A stretch of 64,000 nucleotides of DNA from Pseudomonadota bacterium. Its GTDB lineage: Bacteria > Pseudomonadota > Gammaproteobacteria > Xanthomonadales > Xanthomonadaceae. The stretch lies in NCBI GenBank assembly GCA_018242365.1, contig JAFECB010000004.1, positions 1 through 64,000 on the forward strand, written 5' to 3'. How positions within the stretch are numbered: position 1 is the stretch's first letter; each line of letters begins with the position of its first letter. A program made the position numbers and the translations under genes. Shown here piece after piece: positions 17,534 through 27,126 of the stretch. Below the pieces are notes generated by a model that was not told the origin of the DNA, did no database searches, and saw only the letters and a list, made by a program, of their open reading frames with translations.

Positions 17534-18070
17534 TTACTGCTTTGCAATGCCCATGTGGTTCATCAACGCCGCCAATTGCGGCACCCGTTCCCGGGCTTCA
17601 TCCAGCACAGCGCGAGTGAGCTGCACCATCCAATCGGGCTCGTGTGCTTCACAGCCGGTTGCCGCCTTGAATGCCCGCTTCATGTGCCGGGTGTCACCCT
17701 CGGTTTCAACACCGAGGATTTTCAACAGCCACGCCTCAAGGCATGGCTCGGACTCGATGACATCCAGCTTTCCTCGTCTACCGACGCTACTCCTGCGCGT
17801 CCTGGCACGCTCGTCGTCACCCCAATCCGTATCGATATCCAGCAGCAACACCACCTTGTCGTGATCGCGATTGTTCGCGCGACGCCGGGCGGTATCCAGG
17901 ACATGCTTGCCGCCCTTGCCGTGCGCGTTGATCTCCTGAACCGAGCGCCCCAGAACGTCGCCACAAGTTCGCTTCACATGACGAACGAAGGCGACTTCGG
18001 CGTCGCCTTCGCCGACGACCAGCAAGGTCTCCCGGGCCGCACGATTCCTGGCGACCGGACTCGGCGTCAT
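17534..18070 (-). CDS. RloB-like TOPRIM protein
   Basis: This 178-residue protein has the TOPRIM-type pattern of RloB/DUF4435-like nucleases: a glutamate in LLVVGEGDAEVAFV near the N-terminus, a DxD in VVLLLDIDTDWGD, and the family hallmark SEPCLEAWLLKILG. RloB proteins are named for their position as R-linked ORFs inside type I restriction loci. It overlaps the ATPase gene rloA by four bases (ATGA), so the two products should be made together; by analogy with ATPase/TOPRIM defence pairs such as PARIS, it may be the effector nuclease. That role is inference. Confidence 0.75.
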   Translation of the reverse strand: MTPSPVARNRAARETLLVVGEGDAEVAFVRHVKRTCGDVLGRSVQEINAHGKGGKHVLDTARRRANNRDHDKVVLLLDIDTDWGDDERARTRRSSVGRRGKLDVIESEPCLEAWLLKILGVETEGDTRHMKRAFKAATGCEAHEPDWMVQLTRAVLDEARERVPQLAALMNHMGIAKQ

Positions 18071-19284
18071 ATCCGAGGGACGGCTCCATAGGCGCCACTC
18101 ATGTATTTCGCATACAGATTGTCTTGCGTGCGCACACCCTCCATCGTGTCCAGGCGCCAGGCTTCGCTGACGCAATCGTTCTTTTCCACCAGGACCACCT
18201 GCGACCTGCCGAGCAGACTGATCACTTCGATCGAATGGCTGGTGAAGATGATCTGTGCATGGTGCGGGTTGGTATGCGGGCTGGCGAACAGATCGAGCAA
18301 GGGCGCGATCATGTGCGGGTGCATGTCGCTTTCCAGTTCATCGATGACGGCAATGCCGCCATTGGCCAGCACGCTCAATAGATACGAGAGTTGCGTGAAT
18401 GCCGTGCGCGTACCGCTGGACTCCTCCAGCATGTGCAGTTCGTGCCTGGAGCCGTCCTTCAACGTATGAACGCCAAGCACCTGGTATTGGGGTGGTAGCT
18501 TCACGCCATCCGGTAGCTTCATCTCTGGCGGAGCAACGAGGTCCAGTTTGCGGATCTCAACACCTGACAAACCGAAGTCCAGATCGCGCAACAGGGTTTC
18601 CATCTGCTGCTTCAGCGCAGAATTCTCATGGAAGAAGATGGATGCATGCTGGAAGCCGCGATTGGGATCGACACGGCCTACCTGCATGATGTTGCTGGCG
18701 ACATTCGCGCCCACCAGACGCTGCGCGACTTCCACGCCATACTGCGCCGCAGTCGAAATCAACGAGGCATTCTGGCGCACCTTCTTCGCTTCGGCCGGGC
18801 TGAGGTCAAAGTCGCCATCCTGCTTGATGACGTACTGCTTCGCGGCCGCGTCCCAGTCGCGCTCGAACAGATAGGAGAACTTCGCACGCTTCCGGTTCGG
18901 GCGCCGGTAGACCGCCTCGTGCAGCACGCGCTCCGGCGTGAGCCGCAACACATAGCGCCAGAGCGTGCCTTCCTGATCGTCGGCATGCAGTTCGAACTCG
19001 ATCGGAGCGTTCTGCGCGGCAAAATGCGGCTTGACCGGAATGTGCGCAGTCGGCTGGCTCTGAAATGAGTGGACGATGAACCAGTTCAGGAACGCCAAGG
19101 GCTTGATCAGCGAGGTCTTGCCCGCGCCATTGGCGCCGATCACGGCCAGGGCCGTGGCTAGGCGCTGGCCGGACGGCGAGACCGCGTCCCAGCCGTGCGC
19201 AGCGGCCTTTTTGGTCAAGGCAAAAGACACTTCGGTGCGTTCCCTGAACGAATGGAAGTTCTTGAACGCGTAGGAGTGGAGCAT
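18067..19284 (-). CDS. RloA-like AAA ATPase of ABC/OLD type
   Basis: This 405-residue ATPase has a RecF/OLD-type beginning (MLHSYAFKNFHSFRERTEV), Walker A GANGAGKTSLIK, a signature-like region and Walker B with D-loop in IAVIDELESDMHPH, followed by the H-loop IIFTSHSIEVI. Proteins of this kind pair with TOPRIM nucleases in phage-defence systems. The gene follows hsdS after 143 bases that contain its own promoter, and overlaps the RloB-like gene. Start ATG 19284 fits the family N-terminus; a longer frame upstream is disregarded. Confidence 0.8.
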   Translation of the reverse strand: MLHSYAFKNFHSFRERTEVSFALTKKAAAHGWDAVSPSGQRLATALAVIGANGAGKTSLIKPLAFLNWFIVHSFQSQPTAHIPVKPHFAAQNAPIEFELHADDQEGTLWRYVLRLTPERVLHEAVYRRPNRKRAKFSYLFERDWDAAAKQYVIKQDGDFDLSPAEAKKVRQNASLISTAAQYGVEVAQRLVGANVASNIMQVGRVDPNRGFQHASIFFHENSALKQQMETLLRDLDFGLSGVEIRKLDLVAPPEMKLPDGVKLPPQYQVLGVHTLKDGSRHELHMLEESSGTRTAFTQLSYLLSVLANGGIAVIDELESDMHPHMIAPLLDLFASPHTNPHHAQIIFTSHSIEVISLLGRSQVVLVEKNDCVSEAWRLDTMEGVRTQDNLYAKYMSGAYGAVPRI

Positions 19285-19327
19285 GGTCGTCCCCCGCTTG
19301 AACGGCCAGATTTCGACCGTGAAACGC

Positions 19328-19357
19328 ATTTTAGGACAATTTATTGTCTGTTATCAA
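19328..19357 (-). promoter_or_regulatory. Putative sigma70 promoter with in-spacer palindrome, for the rlo pair
   Basis: On the minus strand TTGATA (19352-19357) and TAAAAT (19328-19333) are 18 bases apart, about 45 bases upstream of the RloA-like start. The spacer holds GACAATAAATTGTC (19335-19348), whose 6-bp arms are perfectly complementary, so a repressor could bind between the two hexamers. Confidence 0.55.
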
Positions 19358-19427
19358 GTTTCACGACAGAATTTGCAGGCGATTCGACTGGACCGTCGCC
19401 CAGCCGTTCAGCCGCCCAAGGGCGGGA

Positions 19428-20603
19428 TCAGTCGGGCTGGCGGCAGGCGAAGGACTGATGAAGCAAGGCGTCGAACGTTGCCTGCGCGGTCGCCAACGCG
19501 GCTGCTTGCTGGGTGGCTATGCCGCGAACGGCCTCGGCCTTGGCAGCAAATTGGCGCTGCAGTTCGATCGGAGGAACTGGCAATTCCAGGGTCTTCAACT
19601 TGGCTTGCGAGATGTTCTTCATCGAGCCGCCGGTGCCAGAAGCAAGCCGGCTCAACTTGCTTCGCATTGCGGGCTGTTGGAGCAAATGCAGCGCAAACCT
19701 CGGTTCGATAGTTGCGTCGCCGCGCCATACGAAACGCCAAATTTTGTCGGGGAGCAATGCCCTGCCGTCAGTGATCTCCACGATTGCAGTTGCGCCAACC
19801 AACGCTTCCGTATTCGCACGGGAAATCAGCAAGTCGCCCGTGCCGATGAAATGCGATTCTGCTGGAACCAAGTCGTTCGGGGCAGGCTTTGATTCGCTTT
19901 CGATATAGCGGCCTGAGGTCACTGCGCTGATTTTCAGGATTCGATATGTTGCCGACTCATCATCCCCTGCTTGTACGTTCTTACCACCCTCGAATCGCTC
20001 GACGAGTTCGTCTATGCGACGTACCGGCCACCCCTTCGGGTTGCTAGCCGGGTCACCGAACATTTCCCGGAACAGCGCGGGCACCAGTTCGGCGGCCTTG
20101 CGCTGGGCTTCGAGGCGCAGTCGGACAATGCCTTCGGCGCGGGAGAGCAGATCCACAATTCGGCGCTGTTCTGGGAGCGTCGGCAACGGAATGCTCAACC
20201 CCAGCAAGTGATTCATGTCAGCACGCGGCATTCGCGCGCCAGCAGTGCGCGCGACAATCGCGTCAACAGTTGCCTTCCTTCGCAGGAAGTAGGCTAAATA
20301 CTGACGATCCAGAGATTCTCCCGGCAACAATGGGATAAGTTCAGTTGAACACTTTCCTTCGAAGTTTGGCGCAACAACCTTATTGAGATACGGGCGTAAC
20401 TTCCCGTAAAGAACATGTCGCGTATCGAAGTGAAAACTTACGGCGCGCGGATCTTCTGGCGTCTTCGACAATTCGCCATCAACAAAGGCCCCCGTACCAG
20501 CCTCAACAGATTCGAGGCCGACATACTTCAAGTCAGTACGTTCGCCTGGGCGAATCTGCTCGCGAGCCTGTGAGCACACATCGCGCAACAAAACCTGCGT
20601 CAT
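19428..20603 (-). CDS. hsdS: Type I restriction enzyme specificity subunit
   Basis: HsdS recognises the bipartite DNA target for methylation and cleavage. The 391-residue product has two target-recognition domains, each followed by a conserved helical region: LPTLPEQRRIVDLLSRAEGIVRLR near the middle and VPPIELQRQFAAKAEAVRG near the end. The FREMFGDPASNPKGWPVRRI linker between halves is typical. It overlaps hsdM by four bases (ATGA). GC content is visibly lower than in flanking genes, consistent with exchange of specificity modules. Confidence 0.93.
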   Translation of the reverse strand: MTQVLLRDVCSQAREQIRPGERTDLKYVGLESVEAGTGAFVDGELSKTPEDPRAVSFHFDTRHVLYGKLRPYLNKVVAPNFEGKCSTELIPLLPGESLDRQYLAYFLRRKATVDAIVARTAGARMPRADMNHLLGLSIPLPTLPEQRRIVDLLSRAEGIVRLRLEAQRKAAELVPALFREMFGDPASNPKGWPVRRIDELVERFEGGKNVQAGDDESATYRILKISAVTSGRYIESESKPAPNDLVPAESHFIGTGDLLISRANTEALVGATAIVEITDGRALLPDKIWRFVWRGDATIEPRFALHLLQQPAMRSKLSRLASGTGGSMKNISQAKLKTLELPVPPIELQRQFAAKAEAVRGIATQQAAALATAQATFDALLHQSFACRQPD

Positions 20604-22240
20604 GCTGCGTCTTCCGCTAGAGCCTCACGCAAGGCTTCAACCTCGCTAGCAATCTCCGCCTCCAGCGCTGCCAACTCGTCCAACAGCTCGCGAGGGTCAC
20701 GGTGATCCACCTGGGCCGCACTCAACGGCCGGTACTTGCTGGCGCTCAAGTTGTAGTCATTGCCACGCAAGGCCTCCGCCGTGGCGAACCACCAGTTCTT
20801 CGTCCACTCGAAGTTGGTAGCGGGGGCAGGATTTGAACCTGCAGCCTGCCACTCGGCCCAACGATCATCACGGGTACGGAACGCCTCGATCAGGCCCGAC
20901 AGATCGTCCGCCTCTATCGGCTGATCGTGGTTCGCGTCCAGCTTGTAGCCGTCATTGTCCGCGTGCAGGAACAACACCCGATCCGTGCTGCCGCCCTTGC
21001 GGAAAAACAACGCAGAAGTCTTCACCCCCGAATACGGCTGGAACACACCACCCGGGAAGGACAGCACTGCCTCCACCGTATTGTTTTCCGCCAGCAACCG
21101 GCGGATTTCCTTGTGCGCGCCCGTCGAGCCGAACAACACGCCTTCCGGCACGATTACCCCGCAGCGGCCACCCGGCTTCAACGAGTCCAGCATGTATTTC
21201 AGGAACAGGATCTCTGTGGCGCCGGTGTTCCCTACCCGCACGTCCTCCACGATCCGGTCGCGGTCCACGCGCCCGGAGAATGGCGGATTGGCCAGCACCA
21301 CGTCGTAGGCGTCCGGCAACCCCAGGTCAGCACGCTGCTGCACGTCCAAGGTGCTGGTCAGCGCATTGCGGCGCAAAATCCGCACGTTCGGCAAGCCACG
21401 CAGGGTCAGGTTCATCGTCGCCAGGCGCACCATCTTCGGGTCGACGTCGTTGCCGTAGAAGGTGCGGTTGGCCAGTTGGCTTTGCTGCGCCTGGTTGAGC
21501 CGATCGCCCAGCCCGCGCCGTTGCTGCTTGCCGTCGGACTCGACGGTCTCGATGGCCGCCTCCGATGAGTTGGCCAGGCGAATATGGTTGTAGGCCGCCG
21601 CCAGGAAGCCGGCGGTACCGGCAGCCGGGTCGTAGACGGTTTCGCCGATCTGCGGATTCACGATGTCCACGATGGCGCGGATGATGTGGCGCGGCGTGCG
21701 GAACTGGCCCAGTTCACCGGCCTGCTTGATCTGGCGCAGCACATGCTCGAACAGATCGCCCTTGGTGTCGGCGTCGGCCTCGTCCAGGCGCAGTCCGTCC
21801 ACGTCGGTGACCAGCTTCGATAGAACGGCCGGGTCATCGATACCCAGACGGGCACCATCCATGAAGTTCACCGCACTGTCGGCAGCGATATCGGCGAAGA
21901 ACGGGAAGACCTCGTCACGCACGAAACGCACCAGATTTTCACCGGACAAGCCACGCGCCCACAGCGACCAGCGCAGGCGCTCGGCCGGGATCGCCGTATC
22001 GCCCTTGTTCGGCGCGTTGAGTGGATTGCGCAGCGTCCACTCGCCCGCGAACAGGCTGGTGTAGGGCTGCCTCAGCACCCGGGCGCGGGCCGCATTCTGC
22101 TTGTCGATGCCTTCGATCAGGTAGAAGAAGAACAGGAATGCCAGTTGTTCGGCATTGCTCACCGGGTCGGGATAGCCACCACCAAACAGGTCGTCGCGAA
22201 TGCGATCCACCTTCTGGCGGAGTTCGGGAGTCATCGGCAT
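20600..22240 (-). CDS. hsdM: Type I restriction-modification methyltransferase subunit
   Basis: HsdM methylates adenine in the target site. The 546-residue product has an N-terminal helical domain, SAM-binding DPAAGTAGFL (motif I), the catalytic NPPF (motif IV, ANPPFSGRV) and a C-terminal helical tail. Near residues 468-476 it contains an unusual GSNPAPATN segment, encoded by sequence equal to a tRNA 3' end (20815-20843). It lies between hsdR and hsdS; the hsdR stop is nine bases upstream. Start may be ATG 22240 or ATG 22234. Confidence 0.93.
   Translation of the reverse strand: MPMTPELRQKVDRIRDDLFGGGYPDPVSNAEQLAFLFFFYLIEGIDKQNAARARVLRQPYTSLFAGEWTLRNPLNAPNKGDTAIPAERLRWSLWARGLSGENLVRFVRDEVFPFFADIAADSAVNFMDGARLGIDDPAVLSKLVTDVDGLRLDEADADTKGDLFEHVLRQIKQAGELGQFRTPRHIIRAIVDIVNPQIGETVYDPAAGTAGFLAAAYNHIRLANSSEAAIETVESDGKQQRRGLGDRLNQAQQSQLANRTFYGNDVDPKMVRLATMNLTLRGLPNVRILRRNALTSTLDVQQRADLGLPDAYDVVLANPPFSGRVDRDRIVEDVRVGNTGATEILFLKYMLDSLKPGGRCGVIVPEGVLFGSTGAHKEIRRLLAENNTVEAVLSFPGGVFQPYSGVKTSALFFRKGGSTDRVLFLHADNDGYKLDANHDQPIEADDLSGLIEAFRTRDDRWAEWQAAGSNPAPATNFEWTKNWWFATAEALRGNDYNLSASKYRPLSAAQVDHRDPRELLDELAALEAEIASEVEALREALAEDAA
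20815..20843 (-). other. tRNA 3'-end-like segment inside hsdM
   Basis: On the minus strand this 29-base stretch has a T-stem GCAGG/CCTGC around the canonical T-loop TTCAAAT, then CCCCGCT and ACCA, which is the 3' quarter of a tRNA including CCA. It resembles the initiator tRNA-Met 3' end of many proteobacteria. It is read in frame as GSNPAPATN. There is no tRNA 5' part next to it. Confidence 0.7.
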
Positions 22241-22249
22241 GGGCAGAAC

Positions 22250-24391
22250 CTAGTGAAGGAAAGCGGAGACGGCGTCGCCAGCATGGCCGGGGCCCGTCGC
22301 TTCAGGTGAGAACACGGCAAGACTCAGGCTGGACAGCATATTTTCCAGCGCCTGCGCGCCGCCGAACAGGCGGATCGCCGCAGCTTGGCCGCCCAGCGCC
22401 GTGAAAGACTGGAAGAAGTCCAGGTGATCGGCGGTGAAGTCGTCCAGCGTGTCGGCATTGGCGCGCAGGGTGTTACCGATCAGGCGCAGCCAGCGCAGCT
22501 GTTCCGGGTTGAATTGTGCTTCCCGCGGCAACAGCCAGGACTCGAAGCGCGCACCGATGGCCTGCGCCAGTGCCTCAACCGCTTCCGGCTGCACCAGATT
22601 GCCGTCGGCGTCCATGGTGAGCCAGGCACGCGTGGTCGGATCGATCTGATCGTCGATATCCAAGGCCAGCAGGCGCCGAGGCTGCTGCGGGCGGGGTTTG
22701 GGTTCTCTCACGCGGACGGCACCACCCTCGACCGGGCGATCGTCGCCTTCGTGCATGTCCGTCACGCCGACAAAGTCGAACATCGTAAACAAGGCTTTGC
22801 CCGGCGCCTTGCGCGCGCCGCGGCCGCGCATTTGCCGGTAAAGGATGGCGGACTTGGTGTAGCGGGCGAAGATCAGATTCTGCAGTTCCGGGAAATCGAA
22901 GCCGGTATCCAGCATGTTCACGGATACCAGGATCTGCGGGTACTTCTCTTTCTTGAACGCGCGGATCCTCGTCATGCCGTCGCGGGTGTCGTCGCCACCG
23001 GTGTCGGACACGACATAGTCGGCATAGCGCACGGCAGGATGTGGCTTTTCGTCGGCAAAAGCGTCGTCGAACAAGCGCGCCAACGTTTCCGCGTGGCGCC
23101 TGGTCACGGCAAACACGATGGTCTTGCCGGGTACGGGCTTGCGCTGAATCCCCTTGGCATCCAGATAGCCATTGCGCATGACTTCACGGAACTCGCGCAC
23201 GATGGCGCGGTTGCGTTCGGGAATAGTGAAACGGCGTTCCAGGGCATTGGGATCGACGGTAATGCTCTTGCCGGCGCCGAATGCGTCGCGCAACTCGGCG
23301 GCAGTGGCCTCGTCCATCGCCGACCAGTCGAGCTCATCCTTGTTGACCTCGAAGCCGCATTCGGCAGCCGTCTTGACGGTCTTTGCCTTGTAGATCTGAT
23401 ACGGCACCAGATATCCGTCATCGATGGCCTGGCCGATTCCGTAGCTGAAGGTGGGCTTGTCCACGCCGAAGAAGCGCAGCGTGTCGCGCACGAAGGCCCT
23501 GTCGTCCTCGGCCTGATCCTCGCCCGCAACGCAAGGCGTAGCCGTCAGGCCCAACTGGATCCCGTCGAAGTGCCGCAGCACGCCCGACCATTGCCCGTAA
23601 ATGCTGCGATGGCATTCGTCGGTGATGATCAGATCGAAATAACCCGCCGAATAATCGCGGTAGATGTTCACCATGCTTTGCAGGGTGGCGATGGTGATCC
23701 GCTTGGCGTCATCGAAGCGCCTGCCCGCTCGCAACACGTAGCAAGGCAACTCTGGCAGGTAGTCGATGAAGTTTTCTTCGGTCTGCCCGGCCAAGGTGAT
23801 CCGGTCCACCAGGAACAGCACGCGGGTGGCGGCATTGGCCTCGAACATGCGCTTGATGAAAGCGGCGGCGGTGCGGGTCTTGCCGGTGCCCGTGGCCATT
23901 TCCACCAACAGGCTGCGTCGGCCCTGCCTTACTTCGGTGGACAGCGCGTCGATACAGGCATGCTGGTAGTCGCGACCGGCAATGCGCTTGTCGATGGGCA
24001 CCGACAGCAGGTCCCGGCGCTGGATGGCCGTTGCAATCCGCCGTTCCAGGTCAACCTGCGAATAGAACGTGGAGACCAAGCGGGGATGCGCTTCGTTGCG
24101 CCAATCCCAGAACCAGATTTCACGGCCATTGGCCAGAAAGATGAAGGGGACATCGGCCAGTTCGGCGTAATGCCGGGCCTGGTCGGCAGCAGTCGGGGCA
24201 TGGACGCTGCTGCGCTTGGCTTCCACCACCGCCAAGCCGCGGCCGTTGCGGTCGCACAGCAGGTAGTCGGCCTTGGTGCCGTCCGCCAGCAGGTATTCGA
24301 AGTGTGTGCTTACGCCATCACTGATCTTCCATCCGGCGTCGCCGAGCTGGGCGTCGATCAATGTCCGCGAAAAGGCTTCATTCGTTGCCAT
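22250..24391 (-). CDS. hsdR: Type I restriction enzyme motor/nuclease subunit
   Basis: HsdR translocates DNA and cuts unmodified DNA away from the target. The 713-residue product has an N-terminal nuclease site (TKADYLLCDRNGRGLAVVEAK, a PD-(D/E)xK motif), Walker A MATGTGKT, the DEAD-type DECH box, LTATP, and the second RecA-like domain with MLDTGFDFPEL and RQMRGRGAR. The C-terminal domain is of the EcoEI type. Start ATG 24391 (MATNEAFSRT) fits the family. It is the first gene of the island and diverges from mutS. Confidence 0.94.
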   Translation of the reverse strand: MATNEAFSRTLIDAQLGDAGWKISDGVSTHFEYLLADGTKADYLLCDRNGRGLAVVEAKRSSVHAPTAADQARHYAELADVPFIFLANGREIWFWDWRNEAHPRLVSTFYSQVDLERRIATAIQRRDLLSVPIDKRIAGRDYQHACIDALSTEVRQGRRSLLVEMATGTGKTRTAAAFIKRMFEANAATRVLFLVDRITLAGQTEENFIDYLPELPCYVLRAGRRFDDAKRITIATLQSMVNIYRDYSAGYFDLIITDECHRSIYGQWSGVLRHFDGIQLGLTATPCVAGEDQAEDDRAFVRDTLRFFGVDKPTFSYGIGQAIDDGYLVPYQIYKAKTVKTAAECGFEVNKDELDWSAMDEATAAELRDAFGAGKSITVDPNALERRFTIPERNRAIVREFREVMRNGYLDAKGIQRKPVPGKTIVFAVTRRHAETLARLFDDAFADEKPHPAVRYADYVVSDTGGDDTRDGMTRIRAFKKEKYPQILVSVNMLDTGFDFPELQNLIFARYTKSAILYRQMRGRGARKAPGKALFTMFDFVGVTDMHEGDDRPVEGGAVRVREPKPRPQQPRRLLALDIDDQIDPTTRAWLTMDADGNLVQPEAVEALAQAIGARFESWLLPREAQFNPEQLRWLRLIGNTLRANADTLDDFTADHLDFFQSFTALGGQAAAIRLFGGAQALENMLSSLSLAVFSPEATGPGHAGDAVSAFLH

Positions 24392-24486
24392 GGGCTCCCC
24401 TTGCCCGACAAGGATAGGCGAAACGCCCCCCAGAGGACCTCTCCAACCCACTATCATTCCGATCCATTGGACTGTGTGCGGCAGGC

Positions 24487-27126
24487 ATGCCCCCGTATTG
24501 CGACCGCAGCTCCCCTCCACAAGCGCACAAGAGACACAACGCTTTGAATATCAGGGAATCAACAAGTGCGCCAGAACACACACCCCTGATGCGCCAATTC
24601 TTCGCCGCCAAGGCGGAGCATCCGGACGTGCTGCTGTTCTTCCGCATGGGCGATTTCTACGAGCTGTTCTACGACGATGCGCGCAAGGCGGCGCGGCTGC
24701 TGGACATCACCCTGACCCAGCGCGGCAATTCTGCAGGCGCACCGATCCCGATGGCGGGCGTGCCGCACCATGCGTATGAGAGCTATCTGGCGCGGCTGGT
24801 GGCACTGGGTGAGTCGGTCGCGATTTGCGAGCAGATCGGCGATCCGGCCACCAGCAAGGGACTGGTGGAACGCAAGGTGGTGCGCATCGTCACCCCCGGC
24901 ACGGTGACGGATGAGGCGTTGCTGGACGAGCGTCGCGACACCCTGTTGCTGGCGATCTCCCGCGGCAAGCATGGCTACGGTCTTGCGTGGGCGGATCTGG
25001 CCAGTGGCCGGCTGCGGGCGAATGAAGTGGCCGGCATCGATGCACTGGAAGCCGAGCTGGCGCGGCTGCAGCCGGTGGAAACGTTGATTGCCGATGAAGA
25101 CGGCTGGGCGAACAGCGTGCTGGAACTGCGCGGCCTGCGCCGGCGTGCGCCGTGGCTGTTCGATGCCGATTCTGGCCGCCGCCAGCTGCTGCAGTTTTTC
25201 CAGGTCCACGACCTGACCGCGTTCGGGATCGACGACAAATCGCTGGCCACCGCCGCATCCGCCGCGCTATTGGGCTATATCGAAGAAACCCAAAAGCAGC
25301 GCCTGCCGCATCTGCGTGCGATCGCGCTGGAAACCAGCGACGAGGCGGTGGCGATGAATGCCGCCACCCGTCGCCATCTGGAACTGGATTCGCGTGTCGA
25401 TGGCGATGTGAAAGCCACCTTGCTGGGCGTGCTGGATTCCACCGTCAGCCCGATGGGCGGCCGCCTGCTGCGGCGCTGGCTGCATCGCCCACTGCGCGAT
25501 CGCAGCGTGGTGGGGCAGCGCCACCATGCGGTGCAGACACTCATTGAGCAGCGCGCTGACAATGCACTGCGCGAGGCGTTCCGCAGCCTCGGCGACATGG
25601 AGCGCATCCTCTCGCGGGTGGCGCTGCGCAGCGCCCGCCCGCGTGACCTGTCCACCTTGCGCGACGGGCTGGCGATGTTGCCCGCCCTGCGCGGCATCCT
25701 TGCACCGCTGGATTCGCCGCGTCTTGCGGCCCTGCATGCGGAGCTAGGCGAGCACGATGCCACCGCCGCGCAGCTACGCAGTGCCATCGTCGAACAACCG
25801 CCGCTGCTGGCACGCGATGGCGGCGTGATTGCAGAAGGGTTTGATGCCGAACTCGACGAGCTGCGCCAGCTGTCCACCCATGCCGATCAATTCCTGATTG
25901 ACCTGGAAGCCCGCGAGCGCGCCGCCACCGGGATCGCCACGCTGAAAGTCGGCTACAACCGCGTGCACGGCTATTTCATCGAAATCAGCAAGGGCCAGGC
26001 CGACAAGGCTCCGGTGCACTACACCCGCCGGCAAACCCTGACCGGTGCCGAGCGCTATATCACCGAAGAACTGAAAGGTTTCGAGGACAAAGTGCTGTCC
26101 GCACGCGAGCGCTCGCTGGCGCGGGAAAAGCTCTTGTATGAAGGTGTGCTGGATGCATTGAACACCGTGCTGGAGCCGCTGCGCCGCTGCGCCTTGGCGC
26201 TGGCCGAACTCGACGTGCTGGCCAGCTTTGCCGAACGCGCACAAACGCTGGACTGGAGCTGCCCGCAGCTGCGCGAGGAACCGGGAATCACCATCGAACG
26301 TGGTCGCCATCCGGTGGTGGAAGCACTGCGCGATGCGCCGTTCGAGCCGAACGATCTGCACTTCGATGCAGACACGCGCATGTATGTGATCACCGGCCCG
26401 AACATGGGCGGCAAGTCCACCTTCATGCGCCAGAACGCGCTGATCGTGTTGCTGGCGTTGATTGGCAGCTTCGTGCCCGCCGCGCGTGCGCAGATCGGCC
26501 CGATCGACCGCATCCTCACCCGCATCGGTGCCGGCGATGACCTTGCCCGCGGCCAGTCCACCTTCATGGTGGAAATGAGCGAGACCGCCTACATCCTGCA
26601 CCACGCCAGCGAACAATCACTGGTGTTGATGGACGAGATCGGCCGCGGCACCTCCACCTATGACGGCCTTGCACTCGCCGATGCGGTGGCGCGCCAGCTC
26701 GCCGCCAGCAATCGCAGCTACACGCTGTTTGCCACGCACTATTTCGAACTGACCCAACTGGCCGAACCCGGCAGCGGCATTGCCAATCTGCATCTGGATG
26801 CGGTGGAGCATGGCGATGCCTTGGTGTTCATGCACGCAGTGCGGCCGGGGCCGGCCAATCGCAGCTTCGGCCTGCAGGTCGCGGCACTGGCCGGATTGCC
26901 AAAACCCGCGCTGCAACAAGCACGCGCAAGGCTTGCAGAGCTGGAAGCGCATAGCCGCGATACGCCGGTTGCGCCACTGAGTGCGCCGGCACTGGATGCG
27001 CCGCAGCAGTTCGGCTTGTTCGCATCCAACTCTGCCGCACTCGACGCACTGGCCGGGATTGACCCCGATGAGCTCACGCCGAAACAGGCATTGGAAGCGC
27101 TGTATCGCTTGAAGGCGTTGACGTGA
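24487..27126 (+). CDS. mutS: DNA mismatch repair protein MutS
   Basis: MutS recognises mispaired bases and starts mismatch repair. The product of up to 879 residues has the N-terminal mismatch-binding FxE-type motif ([11 protein letters not shown]), the lever and clamp domains, the Walker [11 protein letters not shown] near residue 640, Walker [23 protein letters not shown], and the C-terminal dimer segment. The start is uncertain: ATG 24487 has no clear ribosome-binding site, and a TTG at 24544 gives a more typical N-terminus. Its stop overlaps the GTG of the MOSC gene. Confidence 0.97.

Follow-up and report, generated by a model that had tools for sequence, protein, structure and literature searches.

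The window, by which we mean the entire 64,000-nucleotide stretch analysed here, carries on its minus strand a type I restriction-modification (R-M) operon, in which hsdR, hsdM and hsdS are accompanied by two AbiL-like genes (Table 1). This region, extending over positions 17534-24520, lies between a mutS-like gene on one side and cinA-, lexA- and recA-like genes on the other, these names being read from the translations. The HsdM protein shows the features of a type I R-M modification subunit, with an N6_Mtase domain, an NPPF motif at residues 318-321, and hsdR and hsdS as operon partners. Among 395 genomes of the family, this type of HsdM was detected at E < 1e-100 only in the genome that carries the window, and its best relative in named genomes occurs in a Dokdonella MAG (L001), with 94% amino acid identity over the alignment and about 85% DNA identity over the operon. 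The operon is thus patchy in its distribution, such that an empty site is not readable from close kin, and it was probably acquired horizontally.

Table 1. Features of the R-M operon in the window, the tRNA-derived segment within hsdM, and displaced copies of the same tRNA end in other genomes of the family
Feature	Position	Strand	Basis or remark
Small AbiLii-like protein	17534-18175	-	PADLOC AbiLii 2e-7
AAA ATPase, AbiLi-like	18067-19329	-	PF13304 5.7e-32; PADLOC AbiLi 5.9e-71
The two AbiL-like operon genes together	17534..19329	-	
hsdS, specificity subunit	19428..20603	-	PF01420 1.2e-14; PADLOC Specificity_I 1.1e-65
hsdM, type I DNA N6-adenine methyltransferase, 546 aa, intact frame	20600..22240	-	PF02384 (N6_Mtase) 1.2e-53; PADLOC MTase_I 3.2e-129; solved relatives 5ybb, 2okc, 2y7c
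Linker of HsdM that tolerates insertions, preceded by helix 457-467 and followed by strand 483-487	20796..20851	-	80-homologue comparison; AlphaFold model
29-nt tRNA-Met 3' end	20814..20842	-	29/29 against own tRNA-Met(CAT) gene
T-arm	20842-20826	-	
Acceptor 3' strand and discriminator	20825-20818	-	
CCA	20817-20815	-	
Trailer A	20814	-	
hsdR, restriction subunit	22250..24520	-	ResIII 6.2e-35, EcoEI_R_C, HSDR_N; PADLOC REase_I 3.8e-78
Copy in G037	4 nt after odhB stop (odhB/lpd)		name read from translation
Copy in G062 and G241	8 nt after stop of esterase-like gene		name read from translation
Copy in G251	72 nt before aroA		name read from translation
Copy in G335	some 300 nt from tRNA-Ser gene		
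Copy in G153 and G290	apparent intergenic region, beside GGGAATC-type repeat		
Copy in G216 (L151)	C14, around 70956-70996; in frame, near HsdS C-terminus		HsdS by Pfam

Within hsdM, the 3' end of an initiator tRNA is reproduced exactly. Read on the minus strand from 20842 to 20815, the copy consists of the 28 nucleotides GCAGGTTCAAATCCTGCCCCCGCTACCA, which run from G49 of the T-stem to the CCA, and it is followed at 20814 by an extra A that also matches the trailer of the tRNA gene, giving GCAGGTTCAAATCCTGCCCCCGCTACCAA as the full copy; at the other end, base 20843 departs from the tRNA, with T in place of C. The initial annotation, made from the letters alone, had recognised the sequence correctly and had placed it at 20815-20843, one base away from the exact match at 20814-20842. 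Its suggestion that the sequence resembled the end of an initiator tRNA-Met was borne out by comparison with the tRNA genes of the same genome, which yielded a donor, tRNA-Met (CAT) at C8:188147-188220 on the minus strand, identical at 29/29 positions over the T-stem from G49, the T-loop, the acceptor strand, the discriminator, the CCA and the first trailer base. Within the 2.63 Mb genome, the 18-base core has only two exact occurrences, namely in the hsdM copy and in the tRNA-Met gene, and since a 29-mer would be expected in the genome by chance only about 2e-11 times, a fortuitous match is ruled out.

The copy is translated in frame as AGSNPAPATN, residues 467-476 of HsdM, and several of its codons are rare in six open reading frames of the window (TCA, 7% of Ser; CCT, 8% of Pro; GCT, 7% of Ala), as would be expected of a sequence derived from an RNA gene. 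It does not represent a whole tRNA gene or pseudogene, given that ARAGORN called none at 20.8 kb and that the sequence upstream is that of hsdM, with no 5' half, D-arm or anticodon arm. A scan of the genome with a general T-arm and CCA pattern recovered the true tRNA and tmRNA genes together with three other matches: the hsdM insert, a half-tRNA on contig C33 and a fortuitous hit inside a coding sequence. The C33 half-tRNA (L118, 42013-42037, minus strand) is a tRNA-like 3' end, GGTTCGAATCCCAGCGCGGCAACCA, that escaped tRNA annotation; it adjoins an int-alpA-like RNA, which scores 28.5 bits and lies below the gathering score, and it probably serves a P4-like element as attachment site.

Comparison with 80 HsdM homologues confirmed the earlier proposal that the tRNA-derived residues stand in frame where relatives carry a short run, the norm being W-Q-A-R-D-x-x-A-E-W. 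Neither AGSNPAPATN nor the tRNA end is encoded by any of the 80, so that the possibility of ordinary protein sequence, which the initial annotation had proposed to check by such an alignment, is ruled out. From one TGG to the next, the native linker spans 30 bases and that of the window 48, of which 29 derive from the tRNA and 19 are native; judged from the relatives, about 11 native bases would therefore have been lost. The window copy does not show clear microhomology at both of its junctions. An allele of the same hsdM lacking the insert was not found in the comparison, and joint inheritance with the closest relative was rejected because the latter carries a different insert at the linker, CGTCATTCCCGCGAAGGCGGGAATCCAG, translated as RHSREGGNP.

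The closest relative is one of 10 among the 80 homologues that carry other in-frame palindromic, REP-like inserts at this linker. CTCTCCC..GGGAGAGGGG-type units occur in seven of them (L005, L013, L020, L030, L034, L035 and L036) and TTCGCCCTGAGC-type units in two (L033 and L063). The CGTCATTCCCGCGAAGGCGGGAATCCAG repeat occurs at 18 places in the Dokdonella genome as against none for a reversed control, and the CTCTCCC..GGGAGAGGGG-type in G397 (69 places, control 40), G402 (88, control 26) and G403 (122, control 17), whereas G396 and G398 contain hardly any copies or no more than the control. Several of the linker inserts, not all of them, are thus proven members of multicopy repeats. The multiple alignment revealed similar inserts in three other HsdM loops, after residues equivalent to about 77, 356 and 415 of the window protein. 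Four of the homologues (L030, L033, L034 and L063) carry several in-frame palindromes in different loops, amounting to as many as about 60 extra residues at one loop. An AlphaFold2 model of HsdM, built from 27 homologues and with a mean pLDDT of 77, places the tRNA-derived residues in a coil, with pLDDT below 50 at 471-477. The linker is therefore a permissive loop, predicted to be disordered, and the occurrence of unrelated palindromes there and in three other loops indicates that the site is marked by its tolerance rather than by any one element. The insert resembles members of the Rickettsia palindromic element (RPE) kind in being in frame, absent from homologues and located at a tolerated loop.

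Of the 398 genomes of the order, 158 contain the exact 28-mer, in line with the conservation of the tRNA, and a sequence so common names no donor of the operon. Inspection of genomes carrying an extra 28-mer showed that those of G037 and G062 are not tRNA genes, while those of G087, G113 and G155 are full tRNA genes and not displaced ends. We then surveyed the 395 family genomes for the fMet 3' end only, with a pattern that excluded tRNA genes by the base at -13 and left the T-stem positions free. Displaced ends were detected in nine of the 395 genomes, with none for the reversed control, and one copy per genome, these counts applying to full 28-base matches, since shorter copies go unseen by the pattern and longer ones reaching into the anticodon loop are excluded. 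One site is common to G062 and G241 and another to G153 and G290, which leaves seven independent sites, the window included. Most copies are intergenic or adjoin stop codons, and one lies in frame in another R-M subunit, the HsdS of G216, which reads ...TARSKGRR-AGSNPAPATN-AHASSRK... In its central spacer this HsdS additionally has a CGTC-type palindrome, likewise translated, and its gene is followed by a RhuM-like gene. The ends of the copies vary, extending 0-5 nt upstream of the T-stem and including 1-9 nt of trailer. For the six of the nine copies that were compared, the trailer bases agree with those of the tRNA gene in the genome or genus concerned, which argues that the template was DNA or a precursor and not the mature tRNA, while the variability itself argues against a fixed element end. 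The exactness of the window copy, together with the displacement at six more sites, establishes that the phenomenon is real and recurrent and not due to chance. No HsdM with the tRNA end was found in the plasmids and phages searched, and the open-access literature yielded no description of a bacterial protein with a tRNA-end insert.

The initial annotation had raised the possibility of a trace of integration or recombination at a tRNA-type attachment site. On such a reading, an integrative element or phage with the fMet 3' end as its core would have entered hsdM as a secondary site and later been lost. Phages using fMet do exist: eight viral contigs (L159, L165, L175, L179, L182, L188, L191 and L195) carry displaced initiator-tRNA halves extending from CTCATAACCC to the CCA, which are apparently the attachment sites of fMet-targeting phages. 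Half-tRNA attachment sites also occur near some R-M loci, as for the tRNA-Pro half at L031:7272-7296 (minus strand), which starts from the anticodon loop, lies downstream of a type I R-M locus and is probably an island attachment site. However, the displaced copies in viruses have their start within the anticodon loop (CTCATAACCC...), the hsdM-type inserts at the T-stem, and among the 42 viral contigs carrying the 28-mer none showed a copy with the T-stem boundary of the insert, one contig starting at the 28-mer and not being judgeable. Moreover, no integrase, island or element boundary is present beside the hsdM copy, where the R-M operon continues on both sides; the displaced copies in other genomes lie between core genes (odhB/lpd) or next to one (aroA), with no integrase in the flanks that were read, and a precise loss that preserved the frame is improbable. 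We consider an integration scar quite unlikely.

The layout of the bottom strand suggests a different kind of mobility. There, GTAG-CGGGG is followed by a hairpin (GCAGG/CCTGC; -4.4 kcal/mol, z -2.4), as in REPs of the GTAG class, and the copies are also dispersed in a REP-like manner, close to the ends of genes and within permissive loops (PMC3733652). The fMet 3' end could then be a small non-autonomous unit moved by a Y1 (RAYT-type) single-strand transposase, and two RAYT-like Y1 transposase genes are present in the genome of the window (L120 at C31:12906 and L121 at C8:126904). These, however, have short terminal inverted repeats of other kinds on their flanks, GGGGTCAGAGTC and GGTGTCAGGGACAATTT, in place of GTAG hairpins, so that they are rejected as movers. 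The T-arm hairpin is weak, and the copies run 3 to 11 bases past GTAG, which is therefore not an end. Each genome has a single displaced copy, not dozens, and within the genome of the window only two copies exist, including the tRNA itself, where GTAG-class REPs are multicopy. REP-like movement by such an enzyme is accordingly doubtful, and it likewise seems unlikely to us that the fMet 3' end has founded a sporadically mobile DNA unit in the family, inserting intergenically and in frame into proteins.

Two further explanations bear on the origin and the retention of the sequence. The piece starts near the T-stem and ends at or just past the CCA, and is thus of the size of a 3' tRNA fragment, which might have been reverse transcribed and integrated. 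However, the CCA is encoded in the genome and hence proves nothing as to an RNA origin, and copies with 6-9 trailer bases, such trailer bases being seen in G062, G241 and G251, are not fragments of mature tRNA; this route appears very improbable. The absence of any substitution in 29 bases, where the DNA of hsdM differs by about 15% from that of the closest relative, could alternatively reflect conservation of the sequence for use as protein or as an mRNA hairpin, for example a T-arm mimic bound by tRNA-modifying enzymes. A recent insertion also explains the identity, the sequence is lacking in all 80 homologues and the peptide is predicted to lie in a disordered loop, and we regard a conserved use as very unlikely.

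On balance, we consider it probable that a short piece of the tRNA gene was captured by templating into the permissive loop of hsdM, either by illegitimate recombination or by a template switch. The donor would have been a piece of the initiator tRNA gene, from the T-arm to just past the CCA, and the route a patch-like, illegitimate recombination involving a single-stranded fragment or a switch of template to the tRNA gene. About 11 native bases of the linker would have been replaced by the 29, with a net gain of 18 and the frame kept, and the insert would have been retained since frame and fold survived. AGSNPAPATN would have no function of its own, and the permissiveness and predicted disorder of the loop suggest that the change was tolerated and near-neutral. 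Counting against capture is the recurrence of the same tRNA and of nearly the same segment, which a purely random process would not favour; this bias may be an artefact of the search, since only the fMet segment was searched for.

The in-frame repeats known from bacterial proteins derive from dedicated repeat families; here the insert is supplied by a functional tRNA gene, the donor is nameable to the base and the same segment is found at independent sites. The movement of very short DNA patches in bacterial genomes is thereby made testable, given that donor, junctions and family-wide copies can all be listed, and the loops of type I R-M subunits are seen to be sinks for short foreign DNA. If the fMet 3' end were after all a mobile unit, it would be a bacterial analogue of the tRNA-derived short interspersed elements.

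The insertion shares features with several known systems. It resembles the tRNA-type attachment sites of integrases in that the 3' part of a tRNA is duplicated outside the tRNA gene; it differs in that the core starts from the T-stem, whereas the viral fMet copies start from the anticodon loop, and in that the hsdM copy lies within a reading frame of the R-M operon with no adjoining element or integrase. Short-patch illegitimate recombination, reportedly described by Harms et al. in 2016, is said to exchange a small number of native bases for a short stretch from elsewhere in the genome, and the event proposed here would be similar, while the recurrence of one tRNA segment is a feature of the present case that is not known to be part of that description. 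The RPEs and the in-gene REPs (GTAG and CGTC classes) are likewise short palindromic DNA inserted in frame at tolerated loops, but they constitute multicopy repeat families of their own, whereas here the end of a functional tRNA gene is involved, with one displaced copy per genome. Bacterial genes with in-frame repeats are already documented, among them recB of two Xanthomonas species, where different REPs occupy one place (PMC3733652); the kind of insertion is thus known and it is the donor that is new.
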